Origin: Lactobacillus sp. PV012
GTDB taxonomy: Bacteria; Bacillota; Bacilli; Lactobacillales; Lactobacillaceae
Length of the DNA stretch: 64,000 nucleotides
Reading direction: 5' to 3'
Assembly: GCF_014522325.1 (NCBI RefSeq)
Contig: NZ_CP041983.1
Span: forward strand, 124,001-188,000
Below are positions 2,195 to 52,689 of the stretch, piece after piece (the first letter of the stretch is position 1; each line of letters starts with the position of its first letter). Under the pieces are notes generated by a model. That model was given only the letters and a program-made list of their open reading frames with translations, made no database searches and was not told where the DNA came from. The translations under genes were made by a program, and so were the position numbers.

Positions 2195-2206
2195 GTTGGT
2201 TCTAAT

Positions 2207-3520: not shown

Positions 3521-3614
3521 AGTAAATAAACCAACTTTCTATAAGGTTACTTCTCAATTCTAACATTATTCATACTTTAAAAGTTTTCAAATACAAGCAC
3601 TAATTATTTGTAAG

Positions 3615-3623: not shown

Positions 3624-3651
3624 TGAATAAATTGGAAAGGAGGGCAAGTAA

Positions 3652-4479
3652 ATGAAACCAATTAAAATAGGAATCTTGAATTTAATGCATGATAAAGAAG
3701 ATACGCAGAAACGTTTTGAAAAAATATTCAAAAATTCAAAAAATGATATAAAAGTAGAATTCTTTTATCCCAAGACAAAATATCAAGATAAAGAAGTTCC
3801 AGAAAATGTTAAAGCCATTTCACAACCACTAGACTTAACAAAAGTTGCTGATTTTGATGGATTTATTATTACAGGGGCTCCAATTGAGCATTTTGATTTT
3901 AAAGATGTGACCTACATTGAAGAAATTCGATGTTTACTTTCTGAATTGGATCGAAACCACGTGCAACAATTATATTTATGTTGGGGTGCGATGGCAGCTT
4001 TAAATTATTTTTATGGAATTAAAAAAGTACCCCTATCTCAGAAAATTTTTGGTATTTATCCTAATGAAATTTTGAAAGCCCATCCTTTACTAGCTGGGTT
4101 AAGTAAAGACTTTTTAGCGCCTCATGCACGATATGCAGATATGGATATTGAACAAATCGCCCAAGATCCACGATTGGAAATTAACAGTCTATCTAAGAAT
4201 AGAAACTTACTTTTAGTGACTTCGCCTCCATATCCAGAAAGAACATTTTTGTTTGCTCACTTAGAGTATGGAAGAAATGCTCTTAGAAAAGAGTATCAAC
4301 GAGAAATAAATGCTCATCCAGAAAGAAATTATCAAAAGCCTGAAAATTATTTTTCACGTGAAACACCAAATTTACCAGAATTTAAATGGAAAAATACCCA
4401 GGAGCATTTTTTTAAAAATTGGATTAATGAATTAATTAAGGAGAAAAATTATGGCAGAAATTTACAACTCAGTTACTGA
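3652..4479 (+). CDS. metA: homoserine O-acetyltransferase, MetA type
   Basis: Transfers an acyl group to homoserine, the first committed step toward homocysteine and methionine. At 275 residues it lacks about 35 N-terminal residues compared with the E. coli enzyme but keeps the core: LNLM near residue 10, TGAP at 74-77, nucleophile Cys110 in [16 protein letters not shown] near 156, and His203/Glu205 in FAHLEYG. Glu79 follows TGAPI; Glu at this place is known to select acetyl-CoA, whereas Gly selects succinyl-CoA, so acetylation is predicted. An AGGAGG-type ribosome binding site precedes ATG 3652. The 3' end overlaps cysK by 29 bases, implying co-translation. Confidence 0.85.
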
Positions 4480-15200: not shown

Positions 15201-18200
15201 TTCCAGCTGGAATTAAGGTTGAAGTAAACAATACTACTGGTAAACTTTCTGTTGAAACTACTCCTGATGCAAAACCTATTAACTTAGAAATTCCAGTTGT
15301 TGTAAGTTATCCAGATGGTTCTGCAGATACTACTACTGCTAAGGTAAACGTTGTTCCATCTGATGCTAACGAATACCAACCATCATACAAGCCTGTAAAT
15401 GTAAAACAAGGTGAAAGCGTTGAAACTGGTGTCCCAACTTACACTGACGCAGATGGTAAGACTGCTAAGGCTCCAAAAGGAACTACTTACAAGATTCCAG
15501 AAGGAACTAAATTACCAGAAGGCGTAACTGCTAAGGTAGATCCAAACACTGGTAACGTAACTGTAACTACTAGTTCAAACACTCCAGCAGGTCCTGTATT
15601 TGTACCAGTAACAGTAACTTACCCAGATGGTTCAAGCGAAACTGTTGATGCACCAATCGCTGTAGGTCCTAACACCTTCATCGGTACTGATTACACTGTA
15701 ACTGTTACCCAATCATTAAAGAACCTTCACGAAACTACTGCTAACAGCATGTATCCAGATCCAATGTCAACTGTTGATAGCATTATTTGGTGGAACAACA
15801 ACGATGTACGTAATGGTAAAGATGTAGCTGGTCACAAGATTACTAACTACAGCGATGTTAAAGCTGAATGGATTATTCCAATCAATACTAACGTAGACAA
15901 GGCTTCTATGGAAGCTCCACTTCCAGGTGTTACTGAATTAAGTGCTGATGCATCTAAGAATCCATCAATTAAACTTACATTTGGTCAAAACAGTGAATTA
16001 ATCAAAGAAACTGGTACTAACTTATTTGCAACTCCTGAACACTCATTAACTTTATCAGGTGGTTGGTATGGTCCAGCTATCGAAATGCAAGGTGCTGCTC
16101 CAGTTGCTGATGCCGCTTCTAAGAAGGCTGAATTAGCTCCAGCTAAAGCAGGTGACAAGTTAACTGATGCTGAATTAGCATTAATTAATACTACTAACTT
16201 AGACAAGTTAACTGCTAACAAGCCTGTATCATACACTTGGGCAAACGACCTTAAGGCTGGCGATACTAAGGGTACTGTACGTATCACTTTCCAAGACAAG
16301 GATAAGAATGGTCAACCAACTTACTTAGACGTTGAATTACCAGCAGGTTCACTTAACGTTGTAAATCCTAAGACTGATGCTGACAAGTACACTCCACAAG
16401 GCCAAGATGTTCATACTAAGGTTGGTGGACACCCAGAAGCATCACAAGGTATTGCAAACATTCCATCACTTCCAACAGGTACTAAGTACACTTGGAAAGA
16501 TGGCGAACCAGATACCAAGACTCCAGGAACTAAGCCAGCAACTGTTGTTGTAACTTACCCAGATGGTTCTAAGGATGAAGTTCCAGTTAAGGTTATCGTT
16601 GATCAACCAGGTAAGACTTACTCAGAAAACGCAACTGGTACTCCAATTGTTACTCCTAAGGGTGTAATGCCAAACCCATCACAAGGTATTGGTAACAAGG
16701 GTGATTTAGATCCTGATACTAAGTACACGTGGACTAACGGTGAACCAGATGTTAACAAGATTGGTAAGACTACTGTTTCAATCACTGTAACTTACCCAGA
16801 TGGCAAGACTCAAGTTGTTGATACTCCATTAATCGTTACTGGTACTGAAAAACCAGGTGACCCAGGTATCACTAACCCAGATGATCCTGCTTACTCAGAC
16901 TTGTTCAAGACTGTAACTAGAACTATCGTAACTGAAACCACAAATTCAGATGGTTCTAAGACTGAAGCTACAAGTGTACAAAAGGTAGTATTCGGTAGAT
17001 CTAAGACTGTTGATAACCAAGGTAACACTACTTACAGTGGTTACACTATTTACGACACTACTACTAACAAGTTAACTAATGATAAGACTGGTACCTTTAC
17101 TAAGGTTGTTGTACCTCAACACGATGGTTACGTATCACAAGTTAACGGTGTTGAATCTAAAGAAGTTCCAGAAGTAACTGGTGTTACTGCTGAAACTCCA
17201 AACTCAACTGTAACTATTACTTACGTTAAGGCTGGTTCAGATGCTGCTAAGTACACTCCAGAAGGACAACCTGTAAACACTAAACAAGGTGTAGTTCCTC
17301 CTGCAGAAGATGGTATTAAGAACAAGACTGATTTACCAACAGGTACTAAGTACAGCTGGAAGAAGACTCCAGATGTAACTACTTCAGGTAGCCACCCAGC
17401 AGTAGTTGTTGTAACTTACCCAGATGGTTCACAAGATGAAGTTCCTGTAACTGTTAACGTTCCAGCTCCAGAAGGTCAAAACATCAACACTCCACAAGGT
17501 GTAGTTCCAAACCCAGAACAAGGTATTAAGAACCCACAAGATATGCCAGAAGGTACTAAGTACACTTGGAAGGATACTCCAGATGTAAATACTATTGGTG
17601 AACATCCAGCAGTAGTTGTAGTAACTTACCCAGATGGTAAGACTGAAGAAGTACCAGTAACTGTAACTGTAACTACTCCATCAACTCCAGTTGTAACTCC
17701 AACTGATGCTGATCAATACACTCCACAAGGACAAGATGTACCTACTGTAATTGGTACTGTTCCAAATGCAGCAGATGGTATCAAGAACAAGACTGAATTA
17801 CCAGGTGGTACTACTTACACTTGGAAGGACACTCCAGATGTAAACACTCCAGGTTCACACGATGCAACTATCATCGTAACTTACCCAGATGGTTCACAAG
17901 ATGAAGTTCCAGTTAAGGTTGTTGTAACTGCTCCAGAAGGACAAGATATTCACACTCCACAAGGTGTGGTACCAAATCCAGAAGACGGTATTAAGAATAG
18001 AACTGATTTACCATCAGGTACTAAGTACACTTGGAAAGATACTCCAGATGTATCAACTCCAGGTAACCACCCAGCAGTAGTTATCGTAACTCTTCCAAAT
18101 GGTAAGACTGTTGAAGTACCAGTAACTGTAACTGTAGATAACCCAACTCCAGAAGGACAAGACATCCACACTCCACAAGGTGTACTTCCAAACCCTTCAG

Positions 18201-18664
18201 AAGGTATCAAGAACAAGGATGATATGCCATCAGGTACTAAGTACGAATGGGAAAAGAAACCAGATGTTAAGACACCTGGTAAGCACGAAGGTACTATCCG
18301 TGTAATCTTCCCTAACGGTGAAACTGTTGATGTTCCTGTAACTGTTGTAGTTGCTCCTAAGTCTGACCGCGATGACATTGCTGGTGTTCACGGCCAAGGT
18401 AACGAAAACGGCGATAACAACGGCAACAGCAATGGTAGTGAAGTTGTAGCAGGTGTTAAGGGTACTCACGAAGGTATCTCAACTGGTAACAACGGTAACG
18501 GTAACACTAATGGTAACAACTCAGGTAAGTCATACATGGACTCACGTTCTAAGACTTTACCACAAACCGGTGCTAATGACGGTGCAGCAGCAATGCTTGG
18601 ACTTATGATTGCTAGTGTAGGTGCAATTCTTGGCTTAGCTGTTGAAAAGAAACGTAGAAATTAA
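12275..18664 (+). CDS. LPXTG-anchored adhesin with beta-helix adhesive domain and Rib repeats
   Basis: A 2129-residue wall-anchored protein. Order: YSIRK-type signal (FSIRK at 21-25, cleavage after AHA at 49); Ser/Ala-rich linker 72-152; pectate-lyase-like adhesive beta-helix about 190-775; two long Rib-like units about 930-1145; an unassigned block to 1360; Rib units at about 1370-1443 and 1447-1522; a mucin-binding B2-like module about 1541-1658 (KTVTRTIVTETTNSDGSK onward); five more Rib units to about 2027; an Asn/Gly linker; LPQTG at 2095-2099, hydrophobic helix and KKRRN tail. Sortase A should link it to peptidoglycan. Rib and B2-like modules suggest host or mucus binding. Codons are strongly biased to AAC, GGT and GTA/GTT, more than in neighbouring genes, pointing to high expression. 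It is a paralogue of the proteins at 39500 and 50542. Confidence 0.9.
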   Translation: MLSKKNYKERLRKMEAKKERFSIRKFSVGAASVLIGFFLTGIGSQQAHAATTDNAPATEKVAANANKDENVASSAAVKSEAPASSAASSATTEKASSAASSASSSVASAAVKSEATSSSAVKSEAPASSAAVKSDAKVATSNASSSAAESEELKSLAAKGAVIGKNAQGTYAMLDTTQPADPDAPVYKNSQDVQDWAGFISALSDANVDHINITKDITVTGQVNGTAIHRSALGLEQKVLYAGSQDLDGKDIARKVTISGNNNTIDFTNQNLNLVDKNQGDNHAAWDMTFEDVTIKADELKAAKSQTDYSSYSPISLTRVSADKQALDTITFKNVTAEVNGRPVITGMTTNSAAAANTGYEKYTLVLKGNNNLTSKAYTGGATPGDDGDAISAGYIGVEDGTTTVNMPQTSSYNLQYGGAAVRANGDYVKDKATGQFTKSPLDVKEGATLNIKGGKDVKGIVALGTGAQLVGGSVNIDGNVNMDLADGHSIAVYSGNLITGKTGNLDITTKMSAYEGGLGHLAMANFNGTQFGVLSIGTGIPGAAAIITSDNRIEDNGSIKIVRNTTDKGANPMITMGTGASSGNTTLRIDVNEGATLDLQDHEQQTALGMIFMPGWIGGPAGENLAGYVNFNNPEYVNLQRLNPTLPEIGGSFIFNQRQKQQDTITNTPVAQWNRANLSDNPDYTWMITNSQSRGRVSMSADGFAPIGFNPQALAPIQKAASSYLTSNGSVVMGATQGAGQYNGSQKANENTNQGTITAGANSQYLNSFLNNFSWWTPQRIAMGSKLLEKDSPVKSSDKDLYDPEVQTIDGTTQQSLKNLDPNKGIKDLLEAKVTTDENGKQVMGSTPVANWQDLVSSVTWYDSAKDAAEWDKEMVDAEGKPEAQPQNPTGQLKTTDKSAWAKVTYKDGSVDFVNIPLNITAPYGNVYQPSYKDTTVTIGKSVQVPVTITKDGKTVDAAPEGTKYAIDQTYLNDIPAGIKVEVNNTTGKLSVETTPDAKPINLEIPVVVSYPDGSADTTTAKVNVVPSDANEYQPSYKPVNVKQGESVETGVPTYTDADGKTAKAPKGTTYKIPEGTKLPEGVTAKVDPNTGNVTVTTSSNTPAGPVFVPVTVTYPDGSSETVDAPIAVGPNTFIGTDYTVTVTQSLKNLHETTANSMYPDPMSTVDSIIWWNNNDVRNGKDVAGHKITNYSDVKAEWIIPINTNVDKASMEAPLPGVTELSADASKNPSIKLTFGQNSELIKETGTNLFATPEHSLTLSGGWYGPAIEMQGAAPVADAASKKAELAPAKAGDKLTDAELALINTTNLDKLTANKPVSYTWANDLKAGDTKGTVRITFQDKDKNGQPTYLDVELPAGSLNVVNPKTDADKYTPQGQDVHTKVGGHPEASQGIANIPSLPTGTKYTWKDGEPDTKTPGTKPATVVVTYPDGSKDEVPVKVIVDQPGKTYSENATGTPIVTPKGVMPNPSQGIGNKGDLDPDTKYTWTNGEPDVNKIGKTTVSITVTYPDGKTQVVDTPLIVTGTEKPGDPGITNPDDPAYSDLFKTVTRTIVTETTNSDGSKTEATSVQKVVFGRSKTVDNQGNTTYSGYTIYDTTTNKLTNDKTGTFTKVVVPQHDGYVSQVNGVESKEVPEVTGVTAETPNSTVTITYVKAGSDAAKYTPEGQPVNTKQGVVPPAEDGIKNKTDLPTGTKYSWKKTPDVTTSGSHPAVVVVTYPDGSQDEVPVTVNVPAPEGQNINTPQGVVPNPEQGIKNPQDMPEGTKYTWKDTPDVNTIGEHPAVVVVTYPDGKTEEVPVTVTVTTPSTPVVTPTDADQYTPQGQDVPTVIGTVPNAADGIKNKTELPGGTTYTWKDTPDVNTPGSHDATIIVTYPDGSQDEVPVKVVVTAPEGQDIHTPQGVVPNPEDGIKNRTDLPSGTKYTWKDTPDVSTPGNHPAVVIVTLPNGKTVEVPVTVTVDNPTPEGQDIHTPQGVLPNPSEGIKNKDDMPSGTKYEWEKKPDVKTPGKHEGTIRVIFPNGETVDVPVTVVVAPKSDRDDIAGVHGQGNENGDNNGNSNGSEVVAGVKGTHEGISTGNNGNGNTNGNNSGKSYMDSRSKTLPQTGANDGAAAMLGLMIASVGAILGLAVEKKRRN
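17248..18355 (+). repeat. five consecutive Rib-domain repeats in DNA
   Basis: Units of about 205-222 bp begin near 17248, 17470, 17707, 17935 and 18151. Each encodes the order GQ..T.QG..P....GIKN....P.GTKYTWK..PDV...G...VVVTYPDG...VPVTV. The units are similar but not identical; two more distant units lie at 16381-16838. Confidence 0.8.
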
Positions 18665-39499: not shown

Positions 39500-42400
39500 A
39501 TGTTGTCGAAGAATAATTTTCAAGAACGACTTCGCAAAATGGAGAGAAAAGAAGAAAGATTCTCCATTAGAAAATTAACTATTGGTGCTGTATCTGTACT
39601 TATTGGAGTAAGCTTTTTCGCAATGCATCCCCAAGATGTAGCAAAAGCTGATACAGTAACTCCAAATTCTTCTTTAGTTGAAGATGCAAAGATTTCAGTA
39701 ACGCAACCAACGCAAAAGACTGAAGAAACAGTTAAAGTAGCTGAAAGTCAAAGCGAAGCACCCGAAACTACAAAGACTACTGACCAAAAAGCTACTAGCC
39801 TTTCTGATGCAACTGCTACTCAAAGTAGCGCAGCAGAGGTCAAAAATGATAGCAAAGCAAGTTCAGCTAGTGAAAATAGTGTAGCTTCTTCTGCTGTAGT
39901 TGAAAAGCAAACTAAAAGTAAAAATAGCACTGCCCCTACAGTAACTAGTGCAGCTACTAAAGAAAATATTACCACTAATGAAGTGCAACAGTCTTCTGAA
40001 AATGTAGCTCCAGCTTCAGCATCAGTTGCGAATACACAAAGTGTTGCAGCTACTAGTGCACCAACACAAAGTGATACAAATGGAGTAAATTCTAAGAATT
40101 CTAATACTGAAGTAGCAACAACTTCTGCTCTTGAAAATGGTATCAAAAATAGTGATAATTTCACTACCTTAAATCTTGAAAAGGGAGAAAATCTTTTAAC
40201 TTCTGTTAATACTTTAAAGAACACTCCTGTCGTAACTAATGATGAATCTAAAAAGAAGGCTCTTTTAGCATCTGCCTTAAACACTTCTTTGGTACAAGAT
40301 ACTGCTCATACTGCTAATGTAGGAAATTTTGCGGATCTTTCAAAGGCTATCGTAAATAAAGATATTACTACTATTAATCTTACTAATGATATTGACTTAA
40401 CCAATATGACTGAAGCAGAAAGTCAAGTTGATGGTGGATTAGTATCTGGTGGTACTGGTCGGAATGGTGATAACTGGTTACAACCTTATGAATTAGCTGC
40501 TAATAAGACATCAGACAGTCCATACCAAGGAATTGCTCGTGATGTAACTATTAATGGTAATGATCATACCGTTAATATGGGCAAGTGGTTTATTTCACTA
40601 TGGAATCAAAATCAAGATAATAATAATGGTTGGCACTTAACTTTCAATGATATGAAAGTTGAAAATAATTCAACTAGTACCCGTTATACACCAATTTATT
40701 TCGGTAACATGAACGGAACTAATCTTAATAAAGTTAGCCTTACCTTCAATAATTTCCAAGCGGATTTAAATACACCATTGACTAATGATGAAGAACCTGT
40801 AGATGTTATTTTTAAAGGTAAAGATGTAATTAACGTTTCACCTTTAAAAGATAATCTAACTGGGTCAATTCAATCAGGTGCAGATCGAAATATCATTTTT
40901 GCCAAAAATGTTTTAATCGATGATAACGCAGATGTAAGTATTACCGCTTCAATGCTTTCTAGTGGTAGTATTATAAGCTTTGATGGTGTTCAAGATGAAG
41001 AACACAATGTAATTAAGCTGGATAATACCAATGATGCTAATGCCGGAAGTGTAGCAGTTGGTAAAAATGCAAAATTAACTATTGATACTAACGGTATTGA
41101 TGGTAAAGGGAGCACTACTAGCTTACGTGGTATCGCATCACGTAATACAAACGGTACAATGACCTTAAATGAAGGTGCTACTGTTAATATGACCTTAGGT
41201 ACAGGTCACTCATCAGCAGTTCTATTAAGTAATTTAATTTTAGATAAAAATTCAACACTTAATATTGATACTATGCAAGACAACAGTGGCTATAGCCAAC
41301 GTAGTTCGGGTGACTTAGGTGCTAATGGCTGGTTATATGCTCCAATTGGATTAGGGGTTATCAGTTTTGCTCAAACTGATAAGGCTTCATTAAAGGTTGC
41401 TAAAGGTGCTACCTTAAAGATGACTCGTGGCAACGTTAAAACTTCTACACCAATGATTGCCTTAGGTGGATCAAAAGTAGGAAATGGTAACTACGACGTT
41501 GACTTTGAAGACGGGTCAACAGTTGACATTCAAGATGCTTCTCAAAATAGAGCTTTAACTGGTCTTATTCCAACTTCTGCGAGTCAAGCTTATAACCCAT
41601 TAATTTTAGTTTATAAGTCAAATGATGTAATGAAGATTGGACAAATGAAATACCTTAATCTTCAAAGAACTAATCCTAATGGCAATTCAGCTGGAAACAT
41701 GATTAATGCCAGTGCTGGTGTAACATTAAATGCTGGTAATTACGGTGGTGTTGATGTCAAACAATGGGATAAGGGTAATACTGGTGATAATCCAAACTCA
41801 ACTTGGCAAGTAGAAAACTTTGGTTCTGGTTCGAACGGTAAAATGAATACTGTTGGTATGGCACCAGTTGAAGATGACAAACAAAGTGACTTTAAGAGTA
41901 ATTTTAATCTACAAGGCACTGAACAACGCGTTGTAATGACTTCAATGGATCTTGAAGCTTACAACTACGATGCACGTTACCAAGATTCAACTGCTAAAGT
42001 TGGTGAAACTATCAATATTGATACACCTACTTTCTACCAAGTTGGTGAAGATGGCACTCTTAGTCCAGCTAATCCAAATCCTGCTCTAATTGATAACACT
42101 ACTTCAAGTCATCCATATCAATTAGGTTGGGCAAAAACTGGTAACGTAAATATTCCTCAAGGTGCAACTATTGATAGTGCAACTGGTAAGATTACTTTTG
42201 CTGCTAACCAAGGACAAGTTGGTACTGTAGTGAACATTCCTGTAACTGTAACTTATAAGGATGATTCTATTGATGAAGTTATTGCTCCAGTTTATGTAGA
42301 AGGTGATAACTACACTCCACTTTGGCAAAAAGATGCTAATGGTAATACAACTGGTGTAGTAAGTCTTCACTATAATGGAGATAATTTACCAGAAACTACT

Positions 42401-45400
42401 GATCAATCAGCTCAAGTAGCAAACATCGCTAATAATTACTCTTTAACTTATTACAATATTCCAACTGAAGATGATATAGAAGTTGCTCCAGTAGATCTTA
42501 CCAACTACGGTACAGTGACTTGGGCAAAGACTCCTTCTACAGTAGTAGATACTCCAAGTGATGAAACAACTGTTTCAGTTCCTGTAGCTATTAACTTTGA
42601 TTCAAACTCAACAGCAGTTAAGAATGGATATGTAGCAGCTGGTACTCAAAACACTGATTTAAACTTAGATTTAACTGGTGCAGAATCTAAGAAGAATGAT
42701 CCTGGCTTTTCAAAGAAGAGTATTGAAGATGGTTTAACTCAAACTCAATTTAAGCGTTTAGTTGATACCAGTGCTTTAGACAATGCAGGTATTAATTACA
42801 CTTTAAGCTGGGCAGATACACCAACTACTAATGCTCAAAATAATGGTACAGTTCGTGTAACTTATCCATCTGTAATGCAAGGTGATGGTACTACTCCAGC
42901 TTACTTAGATGTTCCAGTTCAATACAAGGTAAATGACCCATCTCAAACTGCAGATGATATTGATGTAACTTATCCAACTACTACAGTTGAAAGCGATAAG
43001 CCAGCAACTATTTCCCCAGTTATTACTGATAATGATGGTAAAACAACTGAAGTACCAGCAGGTACAAAGTTTGAAATTGACGGAACTAATCCAGCTGGTG
43101 CAACTATTGATCCAACTACTGGTGTTGTAACTATTCCAGCTACTAATACTACTGAAGTAACTACTGTTCCTATTAAAGTAACTTACCCAGATGGTTCCAC
43201 AACTGATACCACTGTTAAGAGTGTATCTGTTGCAACTAATGATGATGTGAAGAATCCAACTTCTCCATATGACATTATTAAAGACCCAAGCAATTTACCA
43301 GCAGGTACAAAGGTAACTTGGGCAGATGATAATACTCCTACTGCAGGTGACAATGTTCCAGCTAAAGTTATTGTAAGCGTCCCAGGGTCTACTCCAATTG
43401 AAGTAACTGGTACTGCACATTACGATGATAGTGTGATTTACACTCCTCAAGTTAAGAACCCAGTTCAAGCTACTCCAGAATCATTGCCAGATGCAAGTGA
43501 TCAAATTTTGAATATGAAAGATTTACCATCCGGTACTACTGCAGCATGGCAAGATGGACAACAAGTTCCAGTTACTCCTAACCAAACTATCCCAGGTACA
43601 ATTGTAGTAACTTACCCAGATGGTTCTACTGATACTGTTAAAACAACTATTACCACTTCTGGTATAACTGATGCAGATGAATATACTCCCGAACCTGTTG
43701 CTGATTTAACTACTGAAATTGGTAAGCTTCCAGAGCCAGCAAAGGCAATTAGCAATGCTAGCGAAATGCCAACAGGAACTACTTACACTTGGAGTAAAGA
43801 ACCAGATGTAAATAAGGTAGGCGATACTACTGGTGAAGTAACAGTAACTTATCCAGATGGGACGACTGATACTGTAACAGTACCTGTAGCTGTAAAGGGT
43901 GCTGACAAGACAGATTTACAAAAAGCTGTTGATGAAGCTCCAACTGTAGAAAAGACTCCAGCCTATGAAAATGGTAGTGATGAGGCTAAGAAAGCTTACG
44001 ATGATGCAGTTTCTGCAGGGAAAGAAGTCTTAAATAACCCAGATGCAACACAAGCACAAGTAGATGATGCAACGAAGGCAATTAATGATGCTAAAGCTGG
44101 TTTAGATGGTAAAGTTACTGTAAAACCTTACTACCCAGCAACTTCAAGTTCCGCTTCAGTAGCATCAAGCGCAGCAGATGTAGCTAAGGATAATGCAGAC
44201 AAAGCTAGTTCAGCAGCAAGCAGTGCCGCAAGTGCAGCTAGTGATGCATCAAGTGCTGCAGAAAAGAACTCAGCAGCTAAGAGTGCTGCAGAAAAGGCAA
44301 GCTCAGAAGCAAGCGTAGCAAGTTCTGCAGCTTCAAAAGCATCAAGTGCGGCTTCAGTAGCAAGCAGTGCTGCAAGTGATGCAGAAGTACAAAAGAGTAT
44401 TGCAAGTGAACAAGATTCAATTGCAAGTTCAGCAGCCTCAGCAGGAGATAGCTCAGTAGCAAGTGATGCAGAATCAAAGGCATCAAGCGCAGCTAAGAAA
44501 GCTAGTGAAGATGCAGATATTGCTAAGAATGCCGCAAGTGATTCTTCAACTGCAGCATCAACAGCAAGCTCAGCAGCTAGTGAAGCTTCAAGCGCAGCTA
44601 GCGATGCTAAATCAAAGGCAAGCGAAACACCAAGCTCAGCAACTACCACTCCTTACTACCCAGCTGCATCAAGTTCAGCTTCAGTAGCAAGTAGTGCAGC
44701 AAGTGAAGCAAAGAGCAATTCAGATAAAGCCAGTGAAGCAAACAGCAAGGCACAAAGTGCAGCCAGCGATGCATCAAGTGCTGCAGAAAAGAACTCAGCA
44801 GCTAAGAGTGATGCAGAAAAGGCAAGTTCAGCAGCAAGCGTAGCAAGTTCTGCAGCTTCAAAAGCATCAAGTGCGGCTTCAGTAGCAAGCAGTGCTGCAA
44901 GTGATGCAGAAGTACAAAAGAGTATTGCAAGTGAACAAGATTCAATTGCAAGTTCAGCAGCCTCAGCAGGAAATAGCTCAGTAGCAAGTGATGCAGAATC
45001 AAAGGCATCAAGCGCAGCTAATAAAGCTAGTGAAGATGCAGATATTGCTAAGAGTGCCGCAAGTGAGTCTTCAACTGCAGCATCAACAGCAAGCTCAGCA
45101 GCTAGCGATGCATCAAGTGCAGCCAGCGATGCTAAATCAAAGGCAAGCGAAACACCAAGCTCAGCAACTACCACTCCTTACTACCCAGCAACTTCAAGTT
45201 CCGCTTCAGTAGCATCAAGCGCAGCAGATGTAGCTAAGGATAATGCAGACAAAGCCAGTTCAGCAGCAAGCAGTGCCGCAAGTGCTGCCAGCGAAGCATC
45301 AAGTGCAGCAGAAAAGAACTCAGCAGCTAAGAGTGATGCAGAAAAGGCAAGTTCAGCAGCAAGCGTAGCAAGTTCTGCAGCTTCAAAAGCATCAAGTGCC

Positions 45401-48400
45401 GCTTCAGTAGCAAGCAGTGCTGCAAGTGATGCAGAAGTACAAAAGAGTATTGCAAGTGAACAAGATTCAATTGCAAGTTCAGCAGCCTCAGCAGGAGATA
45501 GCTCAGTAGCAAGTGATGCAGAATCAAAGGCATCAAGCGCAGCTAATAAAGCTAGTGAAGATGCAGATATTGCTAAGAGTGCCGCAAGTGAGTCTTCAAC
45601 TGCAGCATCAACAGCAAGCTCAGCAGCTAGCGATGCATCAAGTGCAGCCAGCGATGCTAAATCAAAGGCAAGCGAAACACCAAGCTCAGCAACTACCACT
45701 CCTTACTACCCAGCAACTTCAAGTTCCGCTTCAGTAGCATCAAGCGCAGCAGATGTAGCTAAGGATAATGCAGACAAAGCCAGTTCAGCAGCAAGCAGTG
45801 CCGCAAGTGCTGCCAGCGAAGCATCAAGTGCAGCAGAAAAGAACTCAGCAGCTAAGAGTGATGCAGAAAAGGCAAGTTCAGCAGCAAGCGTAGCAAGTTC
45901 TGCAGCTTCAAAAGCATCAAGTGCCGCTTCAGTAGCAAGCAGTGCTGCAAGTGATGCAGAAGTACAAAAGAGTATTGCAAGTGAACAAGATTCAATTGCA
46001 AGTTCAGCAGCCTCAGCAGGAGATAGCTCAGTAGCAAGTGATGCAGAATCAAAGGCATCAAGTGCAGCTAAGAAAGCTAGTGAAGATGCAGATATTGCTA
46101 AGAGTGCCGCAAGTGATTCTTCAACTGCAGCATCAACAGCAAGCTCAGCAGCTAGTGAAGCTTCAAGCGCAGCCAGCGATGCTAAATCAAAGGCAAGCGA
46201 AACACCAAGCTCAGCTTCAAGTGATTACGCAAGCCAAGCATCAAGTGCTGCAAGTGAAGCAGGAAGTCATGCAAGTGATGCTTCAAACTCATCAAGTGCT
46301 GCCTCAAGTTCCGCTAGCGAAGCAAAGAGCAATGCAGATAAGGATCCAAACAATTCAACTGCTAGCTCAGCTGCTTCAACTGCATCAAGTGCAGCAAGTG
46401 TTGCAAGTTCAGCTGCATCAACAGCAAGTTCAGCAGCTAGCGATGCATCAAGTGCAGCTTCAGTAGCCTCAAGTGCACAAAGTGCAGCCTCAAGTTATGC
46501 AAGTGAAGGTAACTCAAGTGCAGCAAGTGATGCCGAATCAATAGCTTCAAGTGCTGCAAGCACAGCTAAGAGTGACGATTCAGTAGCCAGCTCAGCTGCA
46601 TCAATAGCAAGTTCAGCAGCAAGTGTGGCATCAAGCGCAGCCTCAGTAGCCTCAAGTTCAGCTAGTGAAGGTTCATCTTCAGCTACTCCAAGCTCAGCTT
46701 CAAGTGACTACGCAAGCCAAGCATCAAGTGCCGCAAGTGAAGCAGGAAGCCACGCAAGTGATGCTTCAAACTCATCAAGTGCTGCCTCAAGTTCCGCTAG
46801 CGAAGCAAAGAGCAATGCAGATAAGGATCCAAACAATTCAACTGCTAGCTCAGCTGCTTCAACTGCATCAAGTGCAGCAAGTGTTGCAAGTTCAGCTGCA
46901 TCAACAGCAAGTTCAGCAGCTAGCGATGCATCAAGTGCAGCTTCAGTAGCCTCAAGTGCACAAAGTGCAGCCTCAAGTTATGCAAGTGAAGGTAACTCAA
47001 GTGCAGCAAGTGATGCCGAATCAATAGCTTCAAGTGCTGCAAGCACAGCTAAGAGTGACGATTCAGTAGCCAGCTCAGCTGCATCAATAGCAAGTTCAGC
47101 AGCAAGTGTGGCATCAAGCGCAGCCTCAGTAGCCTCAAGTTCAGCTAGTGAAGGTTCATCTTCAGCTACTCCAAGCTCAGCTTCAAGTGACTACGCAAGC
47201 CAAGCATCAAGTGCCGCAAGTGAAGCAGGAAGTCACGCAAGTGATGCTTCAAACTCATCAAGTGCTGCCTCAAGTTCCGCTAGCGAAGCAAAGAGCAATG
47301 CAGATAAGGATCCAAACAATTCAACTGCTAGCTCAGCTGCTTCAACTGCATCAAGCGCAGCAAGTGTTGCAAGTTCAGCTGCATCAACAGCAAGTTCAGC
47401 AGCTAGCGATGCATCAAGTGCAGCTTCAGTAGCCTCAAGTGCACAAAGTGCAGCATCAAGTTATGCCAGTGAAGGTAATTCAAGTGCTGCAAGTGATGCC
47501 GAATCAATGGCTTCAAGTGCTGCAAGCACAGCTAAGAGTGACGATTCAGTAGCAAGCTCAGCCGCATCAACAGCAAGTTCAGCAGCTAGTGAAGCTTCAA
47601 GCGCAGCTAGTGAAGGTTCATCTTCAGCTACTCCAAGCTCAGCTTCAAGTGATTACGCAAGCCAAGCATCAAGTGCTGCAAGTGAAGCAGGAAGTCACGC
47701 AAGTGATGCTTCAAACTCATCAAGTGCTGCCTCAAGTTCCGCTAGCGAAGCAAAGAGCAATGCAGATAAGGATCCAAACAATTTAACTGCCAGCTCAGCT
47801 GCTTCAACTGCATCAAGCGCAGCAAGTGTTGCAAGTTCAGCTGCATCAACAGCAAGTTCAGCAGCTAGCGATGCATCAAGCGCAGCTTCAGTAGCCTCAA
47901 GTGCACAAAGTGCTGCCTCAAGTTATGCAAGTGAAGGTAACTCAAGTGCAGCAAGTGATGCAGAATCAATGGCATCAAGCGCAGCAAGCACAGCTAAGAG
48001 TGACGATTCAGTGGCAAGCTCAGCTGCATCAACAGCAAGTTCAGCAGCAAGTGTGGCATCAAGCGCAGCCTCAGTAGCCTCAAGTTCAGCTAGTGAAGGT
48101 TCATCTTCAGCTACTCCAAGCTCAGCTTCAAGTGACTACGCAAGCCAAGCATCAAGTGCCGCAAGTGAAGCAGGAAGTCACGCAAGTGATGCTTCAAACT
48201 CATCAAGTGCTGCCTCAAGTTCCGCTAGCGAAGCAAAGAGCAATGCAGATAAGGATCCAAACAATTCAACTGCCAGCTCAGCTGCTTCAACTGCATCAAG
48301 CGCATCAAGTGTTGCAAGTTCAGCCGCATCAACAGCAAGTTCAGCAGCTAGCGATGCATCAAGTGCAGCTTCAGTAGCCTCAAGTGCACAAAGTGCAGCA

Positions 48401-49297
48401 TCAAGTTATGCCAGTGAAGGTAATTCAAGTGCCGCAAGTGATGCCGAATCAGTAGCTTCAAGTGCTGCAAGCACAGCTAAGAGTGACGATTCAGTAGCCA
48501 GCTCAGCTGCATCAACAGCAAGTTCTGCAGCAAGTGTGGCATCAAGCGCAGCTTCAGTAGCCTCAAGTTCAGCTAGTGAAGGTTCATCTTCAGCTACTCC
48601 AAGCTCAGCTTCAAGTGATTACGCAAGCCAAGCATCAAGTGCTGCAAGTGAAGCAGGAAGTCACGCAAGTGATGCTTCAAACTCATCAAGTGCTGCCTCA
48701 AGTTCAGCAGGCTCAGCCGCAAAATCACAAGCTTCAACTGCTGACACGACTCCATCTACTAAGACAGTTCATACAGAAACTGGATCTCTTCCAAAGGCAA
48801 GTGACACTGTAAGTAATTTACCAGAAGGAAGCTCAGTTAAGTGGGTTAAGAAGCCGGATGTATCAACTCCTGGCACCCATACTGGTGTGGTTGAAATTAC
48901 TTACCCAGATGGTCATACTGAAAAGAAGACTGTTGAAGTAATTGTACGTCCACATGCCACTAATTCAACTAATAGTAAGAGAAACAGTCGTGCAGCATCT
49001 CGGAATAGATATGGTAACAGCAACGCACAACGTATCCAATGGCTTAGAAACCATGGCTATGAAGTAGTTGTAGGACCACATGGAGAAATTATTTCCTATG
49101 CTAAGACAACTAATAATGAAGAAAATGCTACTAAGGATACTAATGGTAAGGATTCTGTAGCTCCTGTTAAGGGTCAACGTTTACCACAAACCGGAGCAAG
49201 TCAATTAGATAACTTAGCTGCAATCTTAGGATTAAGTTTAGCAAGTCTAGGATTTATTTTCGGACTAGCAGCCGATAAAAAGCGCAAAAAGAACTAA
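39500..49297 (+). CDS. giant LPXTG adhesin with Ser/Ala heptad-repeat stalk
   Basis: A 3265-residue wall-anchored protein. Order: YSIRK-type signal (FSIRK 21-25, cleavage after AKA near 50); Ser/Thr/Ala-rich region to about 260; pectate-lyase-like adhesive beta-helix about 275-815; Rib-long and linker modules to about 1245; three Rib-like units about 1250-1465; a FIVAR-like helical module about 1469-1539; Ser/Ala repeats about 1544-3071; one Rib unit about 3084-3152; a short unassigned module with QRIQWLRNHGYEVVVGPHGE; LPQTG at 3228-3232, helix, KKRKKN. The stalk has a seven-residue period SSAASxA, with alanines spaced 4 and 3 as in coiled-coil core positions. Sortase should display the beta-helix far from the wall. 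The Ser content also allows O-glycosylation; no accessory SecA2/SecY2 cluster is in the window. Confidence 0.9.
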   Translation: MLSKNNFQERLRKMERKEERFSIRKLTIGAVSVLIGVSFFAMHPQDVAKADTVTPNSSLVEDAKISVTQPTQKTEETVKVAESQSEAPETTKTTDQKATSLSDATATQSSAAEVKNDSKASSASENSVASSAVVEKQTKSKNSTAPTVTSAATKENITTNEVQQSSENVAPASASVANTQSVAATSAPTQSDTNGVNSKNSNTEVATTSALENGIKNSDNFTTLNLEKGENLLTSVNTLKNTPVVTNDESKKKALLASALNTSLVQDTAHTANVGNFADLSKAIVNKDITTINLTNDIDLTNMTEAESQVDGGLVSGGTGRNGDNWLQPYELAANKTSDSPYQGIARDVTINGNDHTVNMGKWFISLWNQNQDNNNGWHLTFNDMKVENNSTSTRYTPIYFGNMNGTNLNKVSLTFNNFQADLNTPLTNDEEPVDVIFKGKDVINVSPLKDNLTGSIQSGADRNIIFAKNVLIDDNADVSITASMLSSGSIISFDGVQDEEHNVIKLDNTNDANAGSVAVGKNAKLTIDTNGIDGKGSTTSLRGIASRNTNGTMTLNEGATVNMTLGTGHSSAVLLSNLILDKNSTLNIDTMQDNSGYSQRSSGDLGANGWLYAPIGLGVISFAQTDKASLKVAKGATLKMTRGNVKTSTPMIALGGSKVGNGNYDVDFEDGSTVDIQDASQNRALTGLIPTSASQAYNPLILVYKSNDVMKIGQMKYLNLQRTNPNGNSAGNMINASAGVTLNAGNYGGVDVKQWDKGNTGDNPNSTWQVENFGSGSNGKMNTVGMAPVEDDKQSDFKSNFNLQGTEQRVVMTSMDLEAYNYDARYQDSTAKVGETINIDTPTFYQVGEDGTLSPANPNPALIDNTTSSHPYQLGWAKTGNVNIPQGATIDSATGKITFAANQGQVGTVVNIPVTVTYKDDSIDEVIAPVYVEGDNYTPLWQKDANGNTTGVVSLHYNGDNLPETTDQSAQVANIANNYSLTYYNIPTEDDIEVAPVDLTNYGTVTWAKTPSTVVDTPSDETTVSVPVAINFDSNSTAVKNGYVAAGTQNTDLNLDLTGAESKKNDPGFSKKSIEDGLTQTQFKRLVDTSALDNAGINYTLSWADTPTTNAQNNGTVRVTYPSVMQGDGTTPAYLDVPVQYKVNDPSQTADDIDVTYPTTTVESDKPATISPVITDNDGKTTEVPAGTKFEIDGTNPAGATIDPTTGVVTIPATNTTEVTTVPIKVTYPDGSTTDTTVKSVSVATNDDVKNPTSPYDIIKDPSNLPAGTKVTWADDNTPTAGDNVPAKVIVSVPGSTPIEVTGTAHYDDSVIYTPQVKNPVQATPESLPDASDQILNMKDLPSGTTAAWQDGQQVPVTPNQTIPGTIVVTYPDGSTDTVKTTITTSGITDADEYTPEPVADLTTEIGKLPEPAKAISNASEMPTGTTYTWSKEPDVNKVGDTTGEVTVTYPDGTTDTVTVPVAVKGADKTDLQKAVDEAPTVEKTPAYENGSDEAKKAYDDAVSAGKEVLNNPDATQAQVDDATKAINDAKAGLDGKVTVKPYYPATSSSASVASSAADVAKDNADKASSAASSAASAASDASSAAEKNSAAKSAAEKASSEASVASSAASKASSAASVASSAASDAEVQKSIASEQDSIASSAASAGDSSVASDAESKASSAAKKASEDADIAKNAASDSSTAASTASSAASEASSAASDAKSKASETPSSATTTPYYPAASSSASVASSAASEAKSNSDKASEANSKAQSAASDASSAAEKNSAAKSDAEKASSAASVASSAASKASSAASVASSAASDAEVQKSIASEQDSIASSAASAGNSSVASDAESKASSAANKASEDADIAKSAASESSTAASTASSAASDASSAASDAKSKASETPSSATTTPYYPATSSSASVASSAADVAKDNADKASSAASSAASAASEASSAAEKNSAAKSDAEKASSAASVASSAASKASSAASVASSAASDAEVQKSIASEQDSIASSAASAGDSSVASDAESKASSAANKASEDADIAKSAASESSTAASTASSAASDASSAASDAKSKASETPSSATTTPYYPATSSSASVASSAADVAKDNADKASSAASSAASAASEASSAAEKNSAAKSDAEKASSAASVASSAASKASSAASVASSAASDAEVQKSIASEQDSIASSAASAGDSSVASDAESKASSAAKKASEDADIAKSAASDSSTAASTASSAASEASSAASDAKSKASETPSSASSDYASQASSAASEAGSHASDASNSSSAASSSASEAKSNADKDPNNSTASSAASTASSAASVASSAASTASSAASDASSAASVASSAQSAASSYASEGNSSAASDAESIASSAASTAKSDDSVASSAASIASSAASVASSAASVASSSASEGSSSATPSSASSDYASQASSAASEAGSHASDASNSSSAASSSASEAKSNADKDPNNSTASSAASTASSAASVASSAASTASSAASDASSAASVASSAQSAASSYASEGNSSAASDAESIASSAASTAKSDDSVASSAASIASSAASVASSAASVASSSASEGSSSATPSSASSDYASQASSAASEAGSHASDASNSSSAASSSASEAKSNADKDPNNSTASSAASTASSAASVASSAASTASSAASDASSAASVASSAQSAASSYASEGNSSAASDAESMASSAASTAKSDDSVASSAASTASSAASEASSAASEGSSSATPSSASSDYASQASSAASEAGSHASDASNSSSAASSSASEAKSNADKDPNNLTASSAASTASSAASVASSAASTASSAASDASSAASVASSAQSAASSYASEGNSSAASDAESMASSAASTAKSDDSVASSAASTASSAASVASSAASVASSSASEGSSSATPSSASSDYASQASSAASEAGSHASDASNSSSAASSSASEAKSNADKDPNNSTASSAASTASSASSVASSAASTASSAASDASSAASVASSAQSAASSYASEGNSSAASDAESVASSAASTAKSDDSVASSAASTASSAASVASSAASVASSSASEGSSSATPSSASSDYASQASSAASEAGSHASDASNSSSAASSSAGSAAKSQASTADTTPSTKTVHTETGSLPKASDTVSNLPEGSSVKWVKKPDVSTPGTHTGVVEITYPDGHTEKKTVEVIVRPHATNSTNSKRNSRAASRNRYGNSNAQRIQWLRNHGYEVVVGPHGEIISYAKTTNNEENATKDTNGKDSVAPVKGQRLPQTGASQLDNLAAILGLSLASLGFIFGLAADKKRKKN
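44129..46207 (+). repeat. type A Ser/Ala macro-repeats, four copies
   Basis: Units start at 44129, 44654, 45179 and 45704, exactly 525 bp (175 residues, 25 heptads) apart. Each opens with YYPA and includes EVQKSIASEQDSIASSA. The fourth is 504 bp and passes straight into type B; the difference is 21 bp, one heptad. Copies 3 and 4 are nearly identical at DNA level. Confidence 0.92.
46208..48712 (+). repeat. type B Ser/Ala macro-repeats, five copies plus a partial
   Basis: Units begin at 46208, 46691, 47174, 47636, 48119 and 48602. Lengths are 483, 483, 462, 483 and 483 bp, that is 23, 23, 22, 23 and 23 heptads; the sixth is cut after about 110 bp. Each opens SSASSDYASQASSAASEAG and contains NADKDPNNSTASS (DPNNL in copy 4). 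Confidence 0.92.
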
Positions 49298-49416: not shown

Positions 49417-50304
49417 ATGAAATCAAAATCGACAATAAATATGTTGAAAAAAATCTGGGATACGAGTCCTAAGGATATTAATGGAGAGGTTCCAATTCCA
49501 TCAGCTTCTCAAGATACCTCATTTTATAATATATTTTTAGAAAAAAATTCTTCTTTCCCAGCCAATTATTCTACTCAGCAAGCTACTCTATTAATGGTTG
49601 TGGGAGGAGAAGCGAAAATAGAGGTAGATGGGAAAATACTAAAGATGAAGGCCGGCACGTTGCTGACTTTAAAGCGAAAAATTAAATATCGGATTTTAAA
49701 GTTAGAAACTACCTGCTATTTAGTAAAAATTAAATTTCATATTAGTTTTAAGTGGATAAAATTCATTCATGATTTACATTTAAGGAGTACAAGAGAACAA
49801 AAGTTGGCTGAGATATATTCAAAGCGGATGTTAGATAAGGGCTATTTTTATTTTTTAAATTCGGCTAAGTCTCTTCCAAGTAAACTCTGTGTACAGTTGC
49901 TGCATGAATACTGGGAGTCTAATTTATTTACTTGGAATGTAGGTGTATATTTTACTCAACTAATTTTAGTAAGTTCTTTAGAGCGATTAAGAGCAGATAA
50001 TACTGAATTGCCAGTTTTGAACAAAGAAAATCTAATCGATTACATCGATGAAAATTACGCCAATATCAATCTTACAGTTGCTGCTAGACATTTTGGCTTT
50101 AGTAGTAGTTATTTCTCTAGACAAGTAAAGAAGATAATGGGAACAACCTTTATTCGCTTAGTAGAGAAGCGACGGATTGAAGAAGCAAAAAGACTAAGAA
50201 TAACAAAAAAGTATACAATTAATGAAATAATGCAAGAAGTAGGCTATGCTAGTAAGTCATTTTTTTACAAAAAGCTAAAGGAAGAAATAGATAACATAAA
50301 TTAA
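49417..50304 (+). CDS. AraC family transcriptional regulator
   Basis: A 295-residue regulator. The N-terminal half (about 45-110) has a cupin-like sensor segment: LLMVVGGEAKIEVDGKILKMKAGTLLTL. The C-terminal 100 residues are an AraC double helix-turn-helix: LTVAARHFGFSSSYFSRQVKKIMGTTF and INEIMQEVGYASKSFFYKKLKE. AAAGGA precedes ATG 49417. The gene lies between two adhesin paralogues in the same direction, with terminator hairpins before and after, so it is its own unit and may control one or both neighbours. The ligand is unknown. Confidence 0.88.
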   Translation: MKSKSTINMLKKIWDTSPKDINGEVPIPSASQDTSFYNIFLEKNSSFPANYSTQQATLLMVVGGEAKIEVDGKILKMKAGTLLTLKRKIKYRILKLETTCYLVKIKFHISFKWIKFIHDLHLRSTREQKLAEIYSKRMLDKGYFYFLNSAKSLPSKLCVQLLHEYWESNLFTWNVGVYFTQLILVSSLERLRADNTELPVLNKENLIDYIDENYANINLTVAARHFGFSSSYFSRQVKKIMGTTFIRLVEKRRIEEAKRLRITKKYTINEIMQEVGYASKSFFYKKLKEEIDNIN

Positions 50305-50317
50305 AGTTTAATTTTTA

Positions 50318-50365
50318 AGAGTACTCTTTTTATCCTTCTTACGGTAAAAATAGTACTCTTTTTTG
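50318..50365 (+). terminator. terminator-like hairpin after the AraC gene
   Basis: AAGAGTACT pairs with AGTACTCTTTTTT; TTTTTAT and GTAAAAA inside add inner pairs. A second AGTACT palindrome (near 50425) lies just downstream and might be a regulator site. Confidence 0.55.
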
Positions 50366-50541
50366 CTTTCATAAAAATAAGTAAGCTTGTTATATCAACT
50401 GATAACAACAATATTTTAAGTAGGAGTACTTATTTTTAAGAAGGTCAAATAATTGGTTAAATTCTTTAAATTACCGTACAATTACCAATGATAAGGCTTT
50501 CAAAGTATTTAAATATAGTAATTGTAGAAATTAGGAAAAAT

Positions 50542-52689
50542 ATGCTATCAAATAAAATTGTAAATTTTAATCAATATAAAAATCAACATAGCACTAATCA
50601 CATACTTAAAGTAGCTGACTTTGATCAATTTACTCAAGCTTTGGTAAATCCTAATATAAGCAAAATCATTTTTGTAGATAATGTAAGTTCAGCAACAGGT
50701 CAAACTGCTTTAAATGAAAATTTATTTACTGGTGAATTAAGTGCTAATACATTAAATATTTTTAGTAACCAATATCATAATATTGCCAGAACTCTTGTCA
50801 TTGATTTAAACAATTATGAGTTAAATTTAGACCATAATTATATTAGTTTTGCAGATCGTAATTATGGTGATAAGGCTTGGAATATTACTTTGAAAAATGG
50901 TGAATTAACTGCAAACAGTGAAATGAATAGCTCACCATTTTATTTCAATAATGTGAGTGAAAGTAATCAAGCTAAGACAAAATTTATTTTTGAAGATACA
51001 GTAATAAACCTGGATGGTCCTGAAATTTTTCACGGCGAGTTTGTAGATGTATATTTTGCAGGTGAATCATCATTTGATGTTTCCTTAGCAAAAAGTGGCA
51101 CTAAAGGTTTTCAATCTAAGTATTCAAATGGGTTAGCTGTAGGAAACTTTTTTGTTAAACCAAATGCAGAAATTATGATGAGGGTAAACACTCCAAATTA
51201 TATTGGTGAAAACTTTTCCGATACTCATCTTGAAAAGAATAATAATATGATCTGGCTTCAAGGAAGTAATAAAAAATATGGAAAAACAATTATTGGAGCT
51301 GGAGCAAAAGTTAGCTTAGAATCTACCACAGCTGATATGCGAGGAATAGTAAGTTCTAATTCACATGCTCTTGTTACGCTGCAAAAGGGAGCAAAACTTT
51401 CTTTAAAGCTTGCTACAGGACATTCTATGGCAATTGCAACTGGAGATTTATTACTTGAAGAAGAAGCTAGTTTAAAAGTTATCACTAGCCAAGATAATAA
51501 TGAACAGAATTTGGTTAATAACATTTTAAATATTGATGATTATCACTATGCACCAATTTCACTGGGATTACATGCAGAAATGACTAATCGTATCCATTCA
51601 CTAAAATTAGCAGAAAAAGCTAGTTTAAAAGTTATTCGTCGTCAAGTTAACTCAATTACGCCACTAATTTCATTTGGTTTAGGAAAAAGCAATGAGCAGC
51701 AAGATTATGTACTTGAGCTAGGTAAAGATAGTAGCTTAGAACTAAGAGATGAAGCAGCTGTTAAAAATTACTTAGTAATGGACCAACAAAAGAGTTGCAG
51801 TGGCTTAATTACAATGTATGGTACAGAATCTAGAAACAGAGTCATTTTTAATGAACCTCGATACGTAAGTTTACAAAGAGAAGGTACTTTTGGTGGAAAT
51901 TTATTAAAGCTAGAAGGAAGTAAAAATAGTATCAAATTAAATGGAAATAGGATTGATGGGATGCCAGCTTCTCATTATCAAATTACCCAGACAATGAGTA
52001 ATGGGGTTCAAGATAACTGGGAAGTTGCAGATTTAATTACTGTAGACAAGTTAAGTAGTAAAGTTTTAGTAAGTCCTACTAAGGCAGGAAAGGGTAGTTT
52101 TAGTTATAATGACAAAAAAATCAATACCCAGGCACCTTATAAGACTGGTGGGAACTATTTAGCTGAAACAAAGACCTTAAATGATATATTAGAACACTTT
52201 AATTGGCAAACACCAAATCGTTTAACTTTTGCTAATTACGCTTTAGAAAATAGTAAGTATATACCTCAGTTTGAAACAATGGTAGCTGTTTATAACGCTG
52301 CTGTACCTAATATTTCACAAACAATGGCAGCAATTACTTTTGTAGATAAGAAAAAACAAAATGTTACTGCACCAATCTTGAATGAAAAACTTGGAGATGG
52401 ATTTGTATTAGGACAAGGCGCTCCTAAAAATGCTATTATCAATGCCCAAACAGGGGCTATCACTATTACTCCGACAGCAGCTGAGGTAGGGAAGACAGTT
52501 TTAGTACCAGTGATTGTAAGATTTAGAGATTACTCTCAATTAAGAATAATGGTGCCAATTACTGTAATAGGTGTAGGAGAAGATAGGAAAAAGCAATTAG
52601 GAAAAGTAAGTGAACAAAGTGAAAAAATTATAACTTTTCCAACTTATATTATTAGGATAGAAGAAAAAGACGACGAAAAAGTTGCTTAA
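50542..52689 (+). CDS. adhesin-domain paralogue without signal peptide or anchor
   Basis: A 715-residue protein made almost wholly of the pectate-lyase-like adhesive beta-helix found in the two LPXTG adhesins of this window (compare GAKLSLKLATGHSMAIATGDLLLEEEASLKV with the counterparts). A Rib-long-type module (about 595-690) ends it: FVDKKKQNVTAP...NAQTGAITITPTAAEVGKTVLVPV. Neither start gives a signal peptide: ATG 50542, with AGGA a few bases upstream, yields MLSNKIVNFNQYK; the earlier ATG 50488 adds 18 residues with no exported-type helix and has no binding site. There is no LPXTG, helix or basic tail. It is open throughout, so not an obvious pseudogene. It may be cytoplasmic, exported in a non-standard way, or a silent cassette feeding variation of the other adhesins. 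Confidence 0.75.
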   Translation: MLSNKIVNFNQYKNQHSTNHILKVADFDQFTQALVNPNISKIIFVDNVSSATGQTALNENLFTGELSANTLNIFSNQYHNIARTLVIDLNNYELNLDHNYISFADRNYGDKAWNITLKNGELTANSEMNSSPFYFNNVSESNQAKTKFIFEDTVINLDGPEIFHGEFVDVYFAGESSFDVSLAKSGTKGFQSKYSNGLAVGNFFVKPNAEIMMRVNTPNYIGENFSDTHLEKNNNMIWLQGSNKKYGKTIIGAGAKVSLESTTADMRGIVSSNSHALVTLQKGAKLSLKLATGHSMAIATGDLLLEEEASLKVITSQDNNEQNLVNNILNIDDYHYAPISLGLHAEMTNRIHSLKLAEKASLKVIRRQVNSITPLISFGLGKSNEQQDYVLELGKDSSLELRDEAAVKNYLVMDQQKSCSGLITMYGTESRNRVIFNEPRYVSLQREGTFGGNLLKLEGSKNSIKLNGNRIDGMPASHYQITQTMSNGVQDNWEVADLITVDKLSSKVLVSPTKAGKGSFSYNDKKINTQAPYKTGGNYLAETKTLNDILEHFNWQTPNRLTFANYALENSKYIPQFETMVAVYNAAVPNISQTMAAITFVDKKKQNVTAPILNEKLGDGFVLGQGAPKNAIINAQTGAITITPTAAEVGKTVLVPVIVRFRDYSQLRIMVPITVIGVGEDRKKQLGKVSEQSEKIITFPTYIIRIEEKDDEKVA

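Follow-up and report, generated by a model that had tools for sequence, protein, structure and literature searches.

The 64,000-nucleotide stretch of Lactobacillus sp. PV012 analyzed here (contig NZ_CP041983.1, positions 124,001–188,000; hereafter the window) contains an intact open reading frame (ORF) at 39500–49297 on the plus strand, on which all features of this gene lie. It encodes a 3265-amino-acid (aa) wall protein that starts with a YSIRK-type signal, ends with an LPQTG anchor and holds a long Ser/Ala-rich stalk. The genome is 1.54 Mb in size (2 contigs, 96% complete) and has ten YSIRK matches.

Architecture of the wall protein and its stalk

The YSIRK-type signal peptide (aa 17–40; 39548–39619) was matched by PF04650 with 37.9 bits and is followed by a Pectate_lyase_5 domain (aa 271–420; 40310–40759; 72 bits), a putative adhesive domain that likely forms the tip. 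Three RibLong and three Rib stretches were detected by domain matches, the best of which lie at aa 1151–1240 (42950–43219) and aa 1391–1466 (43670–43897), respectively. Directly N-terminal of the stalk lies a short three-helix FIVAR/Ebh-like module (aa 1478–1540; 43931–44119), which matched EbhA 2dgj (positions 2–72, E 9e-6) and 6gv5 (positions 3–65); a weak Ebh match to 4kjm (positions 3–122, E 0.016) extended into the first stalk unit. The LPQTG sortase anchor region (aa 3228–3264; 49181–49291) scored 20.6 bits with TIGR01167 (cut-off 15.9). The closest proteins to aa 271–1540, at 77% identity, were those of L. agrestimuris (P0001), L. rodentium (P0002) and Lactobacillus sp. PV034 (P0003), the first two being partial records and the third full length.

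The stalk spans aa 1542–3092 (44123–48775), a little beyond the Ser/Ala tract at 44129–48712 to which an initial annotation, made from the DNA letters, had drawn attention. That tract proved real: it lies in frame (aa 1544–3071) and includes 565 Ser (37%) and 501 Ala among its 1528 residues. The G+C content of the stalk (44123–48679) is 48% compared to 35% for the window, plausibly owing to the GCN codons of Ala. Alanine recurred at lags of three, four and seven residues (autocorrelation +0.27, +0.29, and +0.54), and its amplitude at a period of 3.5 residues was 3.28 against a maximum of 2.55 across 1000 shuffles, which bears out the proposed alternation of Ala spacings of 4 and 3.

The stalk consists of four type A units (175 aa), five type B units (161 aa, one of them 154 aa) and a partial B unit. 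Units A1 (44126–44650), A2 (44651–45175), and A3 (45176–45700) each comprise 175 aa, in the order helix, KN, helix, GD, helix, Pro linker, and A4 (45701–46207) comprises 168–169 aa up to the A/B junction. Units B1 (46208–46690), B2 (46691–47173), B4 (47636–48118), and B5 (48119–48601) comprise 161 aa, in the order helix, DPNN, helix, EGN, helix, linker, while B3 (47174–47635; 154 aa) is one heptad shorter close to the end of helix 3; the truncated B6 (48602–48775) has the start of the first helix only and leads into the C-terminal region. Anchor motifs define A1–A4 and B1–B5, complemented by AlphaFold models for A1, A2, B1, and B2. Units are spaced by 175, 175 and 175 residues, 168 at the A/B junction, and then 161, 161, 154, 161, and 161 residues, which in DNA corresponds to 525 bp, 504 bp at the junction, and 483/462 bp thereafter. 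DNA identity is 92–99% among A units and 95–99% among B units.

Register, unit lengths and predicted fold

These spacings had been read in the initial annotation as a strict seven-residue phase, with all units multiples of 21 bp, seemingly preserved by selection. In the window gene, same-anchor spacings measured with six anchor motifs were indeed multiples of seven residues in 23 of 23 cases. These are, however, repeated measures of eight unit-to-unit steps, the 462-bp unit and the A/B junction being the only separate length states, and such multiples within one gene are a weak argument because the units are close copies that inherit one length. The 21-bp arrays found were short and weak (2.0–3.9 copies, 66–80% matches). 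In a sliding fit of the SSAASxA pattern, the best register changed within every unit, its main blocks running 0>4>6>0 in A and 1>2>4>1 in B with short transitional stretches between them. These shifts, located at KN, GD/GN, DPNN and the Pro/Gly linkers, recur at matching positions from unit to unit; the phase is thus interrupted, and the strict form of the claim was not confirmed.

The rule of 21 bp failed outside the window gene. Unit lengths were 173, 180 and 156 residues in L. rodentium and 171, 163 and 141 in PV034, and none of the 23 same-anchor spacings in these two multi-unit orthologues was a multiple of seven. Length variants off multiples of 21 bp, named beforehand as evidence against the claim with strains in mind, thus occur between species-level orthologues. 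As a sign of selection, global 21-bp multiples were therefore ruled out, the units being close copies and the relatives breaking the rule. The unit interior was constant in all four orthologues, the distances from one fixed anchor to another being 89, 32, 51, and 29 residues (in 11/11, 12/12, 11/12, and 11/11 cases, respectively, the twelfth case of the 51-residue distance being without the second anchor), and the variable part was the stretch containing the Pro/Gly/Ser linker. The number of A units was 4, 3, 3, and 1 across orthologues, counts that exclude P0001 (1812 aa, the record ending at the stalk start) and P0004 (2130 aa), in which no such stalk was found. In P0003, a B unit at aa 2349–2400 was 22 residues shorter and had no turn 2, the heptads continuing in phase; possibly one long helix replaces two there.

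AlphaFold models of two A units and of two B units predicted three helices per unit, of 42/58/58 and 39/50/52 residues, respectively, with linkers of pLDDT < 50 and turns that coincided with the register jumps. Single modelled units superposed on known elongated three-helix bundles at 2.1–2.2 Å across 162–174 residues; a Foldseek search against the Protein Data Bank (PDB) returned no match at E ≤ 0.001 for either model. A structural likeness to trypanosome surface receptors was discounted as kinship and read as a common arrangement.

Turn-to-turn lengths were surveyed on both strands of 36 Ser/Ala sequences, comprising the orthologues and loci from TIGR04319 searches in part of the genomes with matches to that family; P0002 was left out as a duplicate of the protein in L050. 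In 20 sequences, originating from 16 genomes of seven Lactobacillaceae genera plus P0005, a Gly turn (turn 2) came after a Pro turn (turn 1); the remaining 16 had no such interval. Several of the latter, of approximately 1,000 residues, had a Gly turn in Ser/Ala helices and were without the defined Pro turn, and for some others (e.g., G212, G264, and G205) the piece chosen was not Ser/Ala-rich. The length of helix 2, measured from turn 1 to turn 2, was 33, 54, 61, 68, or 75 residues, all 5 modulo 7 (7n+5), in 71 of 74 intervals and in 25 of 28 distinct protein-length pairs. Only eight length classes occurred, and five falling in one residue class has a probability of approximately 0.016 by chance. 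With a looser turn pattern, 61 of 69 intervals were at 5 mod 7 (exceptions 30, 38, 44, 58, 62, and 97). The reverse distance (helix 3, linker, and helix 1) represented all seven classes in 39 intervals, unevenly, with 17 of 39 intervals and 11 of 26 distinct pairs at 1 mod 7. The A-type helix 2, whose turn in the window gene is devoid of Pro, measured 58 residues (2 mod 7) in all 11 units, equivalent to one four-residue stutter more. The idea that length changes respect heptads accordingly holds within one helix between two turns and was abandoned for the stalk as a whole.

The genome encodes a second Ser/Ala protein (4085 aa; G000:C1:501050–513307; L021 7051–19308) that also carries YSIRK and LPQTG motifs and is referred to as the sister protein; its units are longer, more varied and more diverged than those of the window protein. 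In all comparisons of sister stalks, replacements were less frequent at the centre of the Ala face than opposite to it: 0.112 vs. 0.277 between PV012 and G026, 0.038 vs. 0.084 between G026 and L. rodentium and 0.114 vs. 0.269 between PV034 and L. rodentium (each with 0 of 2000 permutations as high), and 0.040 vs. 0.076 between PV012 and PV034 (1 of 2000). The window gene gave the same sign against PV034 and L. rodentium (0 and 1 of 2000 permutations). Silent changes lay slightly off the face, in line with the fewer Ala codons there, and Ser was conserved on the outer side in all four sister comparisons but one, G026 vs. L. rodentium. Only two indels, of 1 and 4 residues, separated the PV012 and PV034 sister stalks over 3066 aligned residues (800–3870), compared to six in the first 200 residues of the same proteins, and the 4-residue indel equals the above stutter in size. 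Between the PV012 and G026 sister stalks, gaps of 1 and 65 were present in residues 800–3200.

A proposed spacer of three-helix bundles and its alternatives

We interpret the stalk as a wall-anchored spacer of tandem three-helix bundles with an Ala core, connected by flexible linkers, to which we assign a probability of roughly three in four. This interpretation builds on the observed sequence, units, register jumps, orthologue lengths and face-related conservation, and takes the three-helix fold from the predicted models. Each unit of 154–175 residues would fold alone into three long helices around a small Ala core set by the heptads, with Ser, Asp, Lys, Glu, and Thr coating the outside. The chain would reverse at turn 1 (KN in A, DPNN in B) and at turn 2 (G-D/N), and a 12–13-residue Ser/Thr/Pro/Gly linker would connect successive bundles. 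Nine such bundles may keep the Rib domains and the pectate-lyase-like tip off the cell wall, and the near-identical unit DNA could permit changes in bundle number by recombination, in which case copy number might act as a length dial. The helical, alanine-packed character proposed initially is thereby upheld by the face-related conservation, the models and the 7n+5 lengths of helix 2. When extended, the stalk would reach approximately 75–110 nm (bundles of 4 × 8.7 nm and 5 × 7.8 nm, calculated at 0.15 nm per residue, with the linkers added) instead of 230 nm.

Several caveats attach to this evidence. Helix-2 intervals of 31, 44 and 52 residues, one each, depart from 7n+5; the heptad-rich profile with which the survey sequences were found may favour in-phase relatives; these sequences share descent, which lessens the weight of the count; and 21-bp slippage could by itself yield steps of seven. 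None of the sister-stalk indels (1, 4; 1, 65) is a multiple of seven. In both window-gene comparisons the far side had a replacement frequency of 0.163, below that of the outer flank (0.301 and 0.260), and since residues that depart from the Ala pattern may have changed recently, there is some circularity in the Ala-only and Ser-only rows. Finally, the models are of monomers, with oligomers beyond their reach.

The last point bears on the original proposal of a single helix in phase throughout, that is, a continuous alanine-packed parallel coiled coil (dimer or trimer) of approximately 230 nm with heptad phase selected along its length. The Ala spacing of 3, 4, and 7, the window-gene spacings, and a match of the A-unit profile to the trimeric autotransporter construct 7o23 (E 0.0019) are in its favour, and a single helix of 2,000 residues was predicted for Giant5 of Apilactobacillus kunkeei, for which the authors, in the available text, reported no consistent coiled-coil support (PMC12863079). 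An unbroken register was not found: it jumps in every unit, the linkers are of low pLDDT, three helices are modelled per unit, and the orthologue units of 173, 171, 180, 156, 163, and 141 residues are off multiples of seven. We consider a continuous coiled coil improbable.

Equally improbable in our assessment is a disordered, heavily O-glycosylated Ser-rich linker, resembling those of serine-rich repeat (SRR) or SD-repeat proteins, in which the heptads would be a by-product of 21-bp slippage. Besides the Ser content, it is favoured by a pair of glycosyltransferase genes in tandem directly upstream of the sister gene (L021 3892–6939), with the same order of enzyme pair and sister stalk gene in G005, G009, and G026. 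The best NCBIfam matches of the two enzymes were SdgA and SdgB, nearly full length, with 257.5 and 170.4 bits, neither of which reaches the family cut-off of 800 bits; their PDB relatives are 7ec1, 7ec3, and 7ec7. The first enzyme was present at an identity of at least 80% in 5 of 61 genomes of the genus, exactly the five with stalk repeats, with enzyme and repeat on separate contigs in G041; nine more genomes had relatives of 34–37% identity and no stalk match. This co-occurrence was not accepted as proof of function, as the five genomes may just be close relatives and share both by descent. Against disorder stand the dependence of replacements on the helical face, the scarcity of indels in the sister stalk, and the 7n+5 lengths of helix 2. 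No second SecA was found in the 96% complete genome, its one SecA-type match scoring 905.4 bits with a SecA2 cut-off of 930, and no KxYKxGKxW signal was present among the domain matches of the window proteins; accessory Sec export was therefore rejected.

Helicity and glycosylation may have been a false choice in the initial annotation, which set a helical stalk against a glycosylated linker: the helical part stands, and SdgA/SdgB-like genes lie beside the sister stalk gene. SdgA and SdgB add sugars to Ser of SD repeats, according to the available text of PMC8561734. On three-helix bundles, the SdgA/SdgB-like pair could O-glycosylate linkers or Ser on the outside; we infer that it may act on either stalk, the Ser/Gly/Asp-rich linkers being the likeliest sites. 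The sister protein of G026 (L052 2034–10172, minus strand) has Ser/Asp/Glu/Gly runs at approximately aa 2537–2620 of 2712, shortly before LPQTG, which are a possible substrate for the linked enzymes, and runs of this type also occur in L027 of G041.

Another helical packing, with two-helix hairpins and a free third helix or with bundles shared between neighbouring proteins, would suit the shorter helix 1 (39–44 residues vs. 50–58 for helices 2 and 3 in both models) and the longer, more varied sister units, yet the close superposition on three-helix bundles leaves it very unlikely.

A broader proposal, which we put forward tentatively and regard as less probable than not, is that the 16 genomes of seven Lactobacillaceae genera share a distinct class of surface rods: tandem three-helix bundles of near-pure Ala core with a serine coat, O-glycosylated in some lineages by a dedicated SdgA/SdgB-like pair, growing mostly by whole heptads (helix 2 of 33, 54, 61, 68, and 75 residues) while their linkers vary freely. 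Ser/Ala-rich stalks might otherwise be taken for disordered linkers with glycans or for a single long helix. If tandem bundles are correct, reach per residue drops by a factor of two to three, and domains are to be counted instead of residues. The 7n+5 rule would then be a simple way to recognize such bundles from sequence in low-complexity proteins, which homology search barely detects, and the units would be a natural system to ask what minimum size an alanine core can have and whether folded helices carry glycans.

Relation to known proteins and neighbouring genes

The closest described kinds are the three-helix-bundle rods of Embp and the Periscope proteins. Embp and Ebh, with staphylococcal F and FG repeats, share the YSIRK signal with the window protein, and the module directly before the stalk of the latter matched EbhA. 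Their rod consists of tandem three-helix bundles, established by crystal structures and small-angle X-ray scattering (SAXS), and each Embp repeat has two bundles, together measuring ~70 Å, the cores of which include Met, Ile, and Leu (available text of PMC7587433). The window stalk differs in its predicted single long bundle per unit, near-pure Ala core and flexible linkers. Periscope proteins, as far as the consulted parts of PMC8201768 and PMC9704523 describe them, consist of near-identical tandem folded units, three-helix bundles among the repeat folds listed, and unit number sets their length. Like these, the window protein combines an N-terminal putative binding domain with a C-terminal wall anchor, here the Pectate_lyase_5 domain, adhesive as judged from sequence, and an LPXTG-type motif. 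The high DNA identity between tandem Periscope units recurs in the A and B units; elongated folded domains were predicted by the monomer models, and unit counts differed between orthologues.

The window protein scored 116.3 bits (E 1.6e-33) with TIGR04319 (SerAla_Lrha_rpt, Ser-Ala-175 repeat), just below the curated cut-off of 120, and the sister protein scored 32.5 bits; by sequence, the window protein is a near relative of this family that is not filed as a member. The family models Ser/Ala heptad repeats as 175 residues, the length of the A units. Matches were found in 35 of 301 family-level genomes and in 12 of 40 genera, and above the cut-off in three genomes. The member in G108 (1227.5 bits) has two kinds of turn, YPxN and GD, with turn-to-turn lengths of 61 and 33, and the same turn kinds and lengths occur in G338 and G299. 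The 5 mod 7 turn-to-turn length of the B units is thus common to all three genomes, from which the A type differs. Unlike the window protein, the G108 protein has a KxYKxGKxW signal; its turn-1 spacings (179, 180, 180, 180, 187, 167, 183, and 155, then 99–111) included no multiple of seven among 18. When the stalk alone served as query, four of 7971 scored candidates reached E ≤ 0.001, namely three known orthologues and one KxYKxGKxW protein of Lactococcus lactis, and a search of genome contigs retrieved one locus, in L. rodentium.

No paper on TIGR04319 or on Ser/Ala heptad stalks was found, most subscription journals lying outside the search; the matches were the paper on the giant proteins of A. 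kunkeei and an unrelated one. In the available text of the former (PMC12863079), Giant1–3 have repeats of 62, 103, or 366 residues described as "parallel alpha-helical repeats", and four of the five giants are Ala-rich. Compared by description, Giant1–3 are likewise rods of great length built from helical repeats in lactic acid bacteria, and differ from the window stalk in being Asn-rich with DUF5776 C-termini. SRR glycoproteins (GtfA/GtfB) and SD-repeat adhesins (SdgA/SdgB) also present a Ser-rich stalk on a wall-anchored adhesin and employ a related glycosyltransferase pair, which is here linked to the sister gene. The window protein differs from them in the periodicity of its Ala face, the linked glycosyltransferases score far below the cut-offs, and the protein has a YSIRK signal, neither a KxYKxGKxW-type signal nor a SecA2 being found.

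In two genomes of one genus (G092 and G126), Ser/Ala-175-like matches fell in open frames that ranged from 3,118 to 16,840 residues, several of which are candidate giant surface proteins. In the window, a second YSIRK surface protein of 2129 aa (12275–18664) has seven Rib stretches and the same type of Pectate_lyase_5 domain, with no TIGR04319 match in the profile search. Downstream of the stalk gene (49417–52689), a gene for an AraC-type regulator directly adjoins it, followed by a gene whose 733-aa product matched Pectate_lyase_5 and RibLong.
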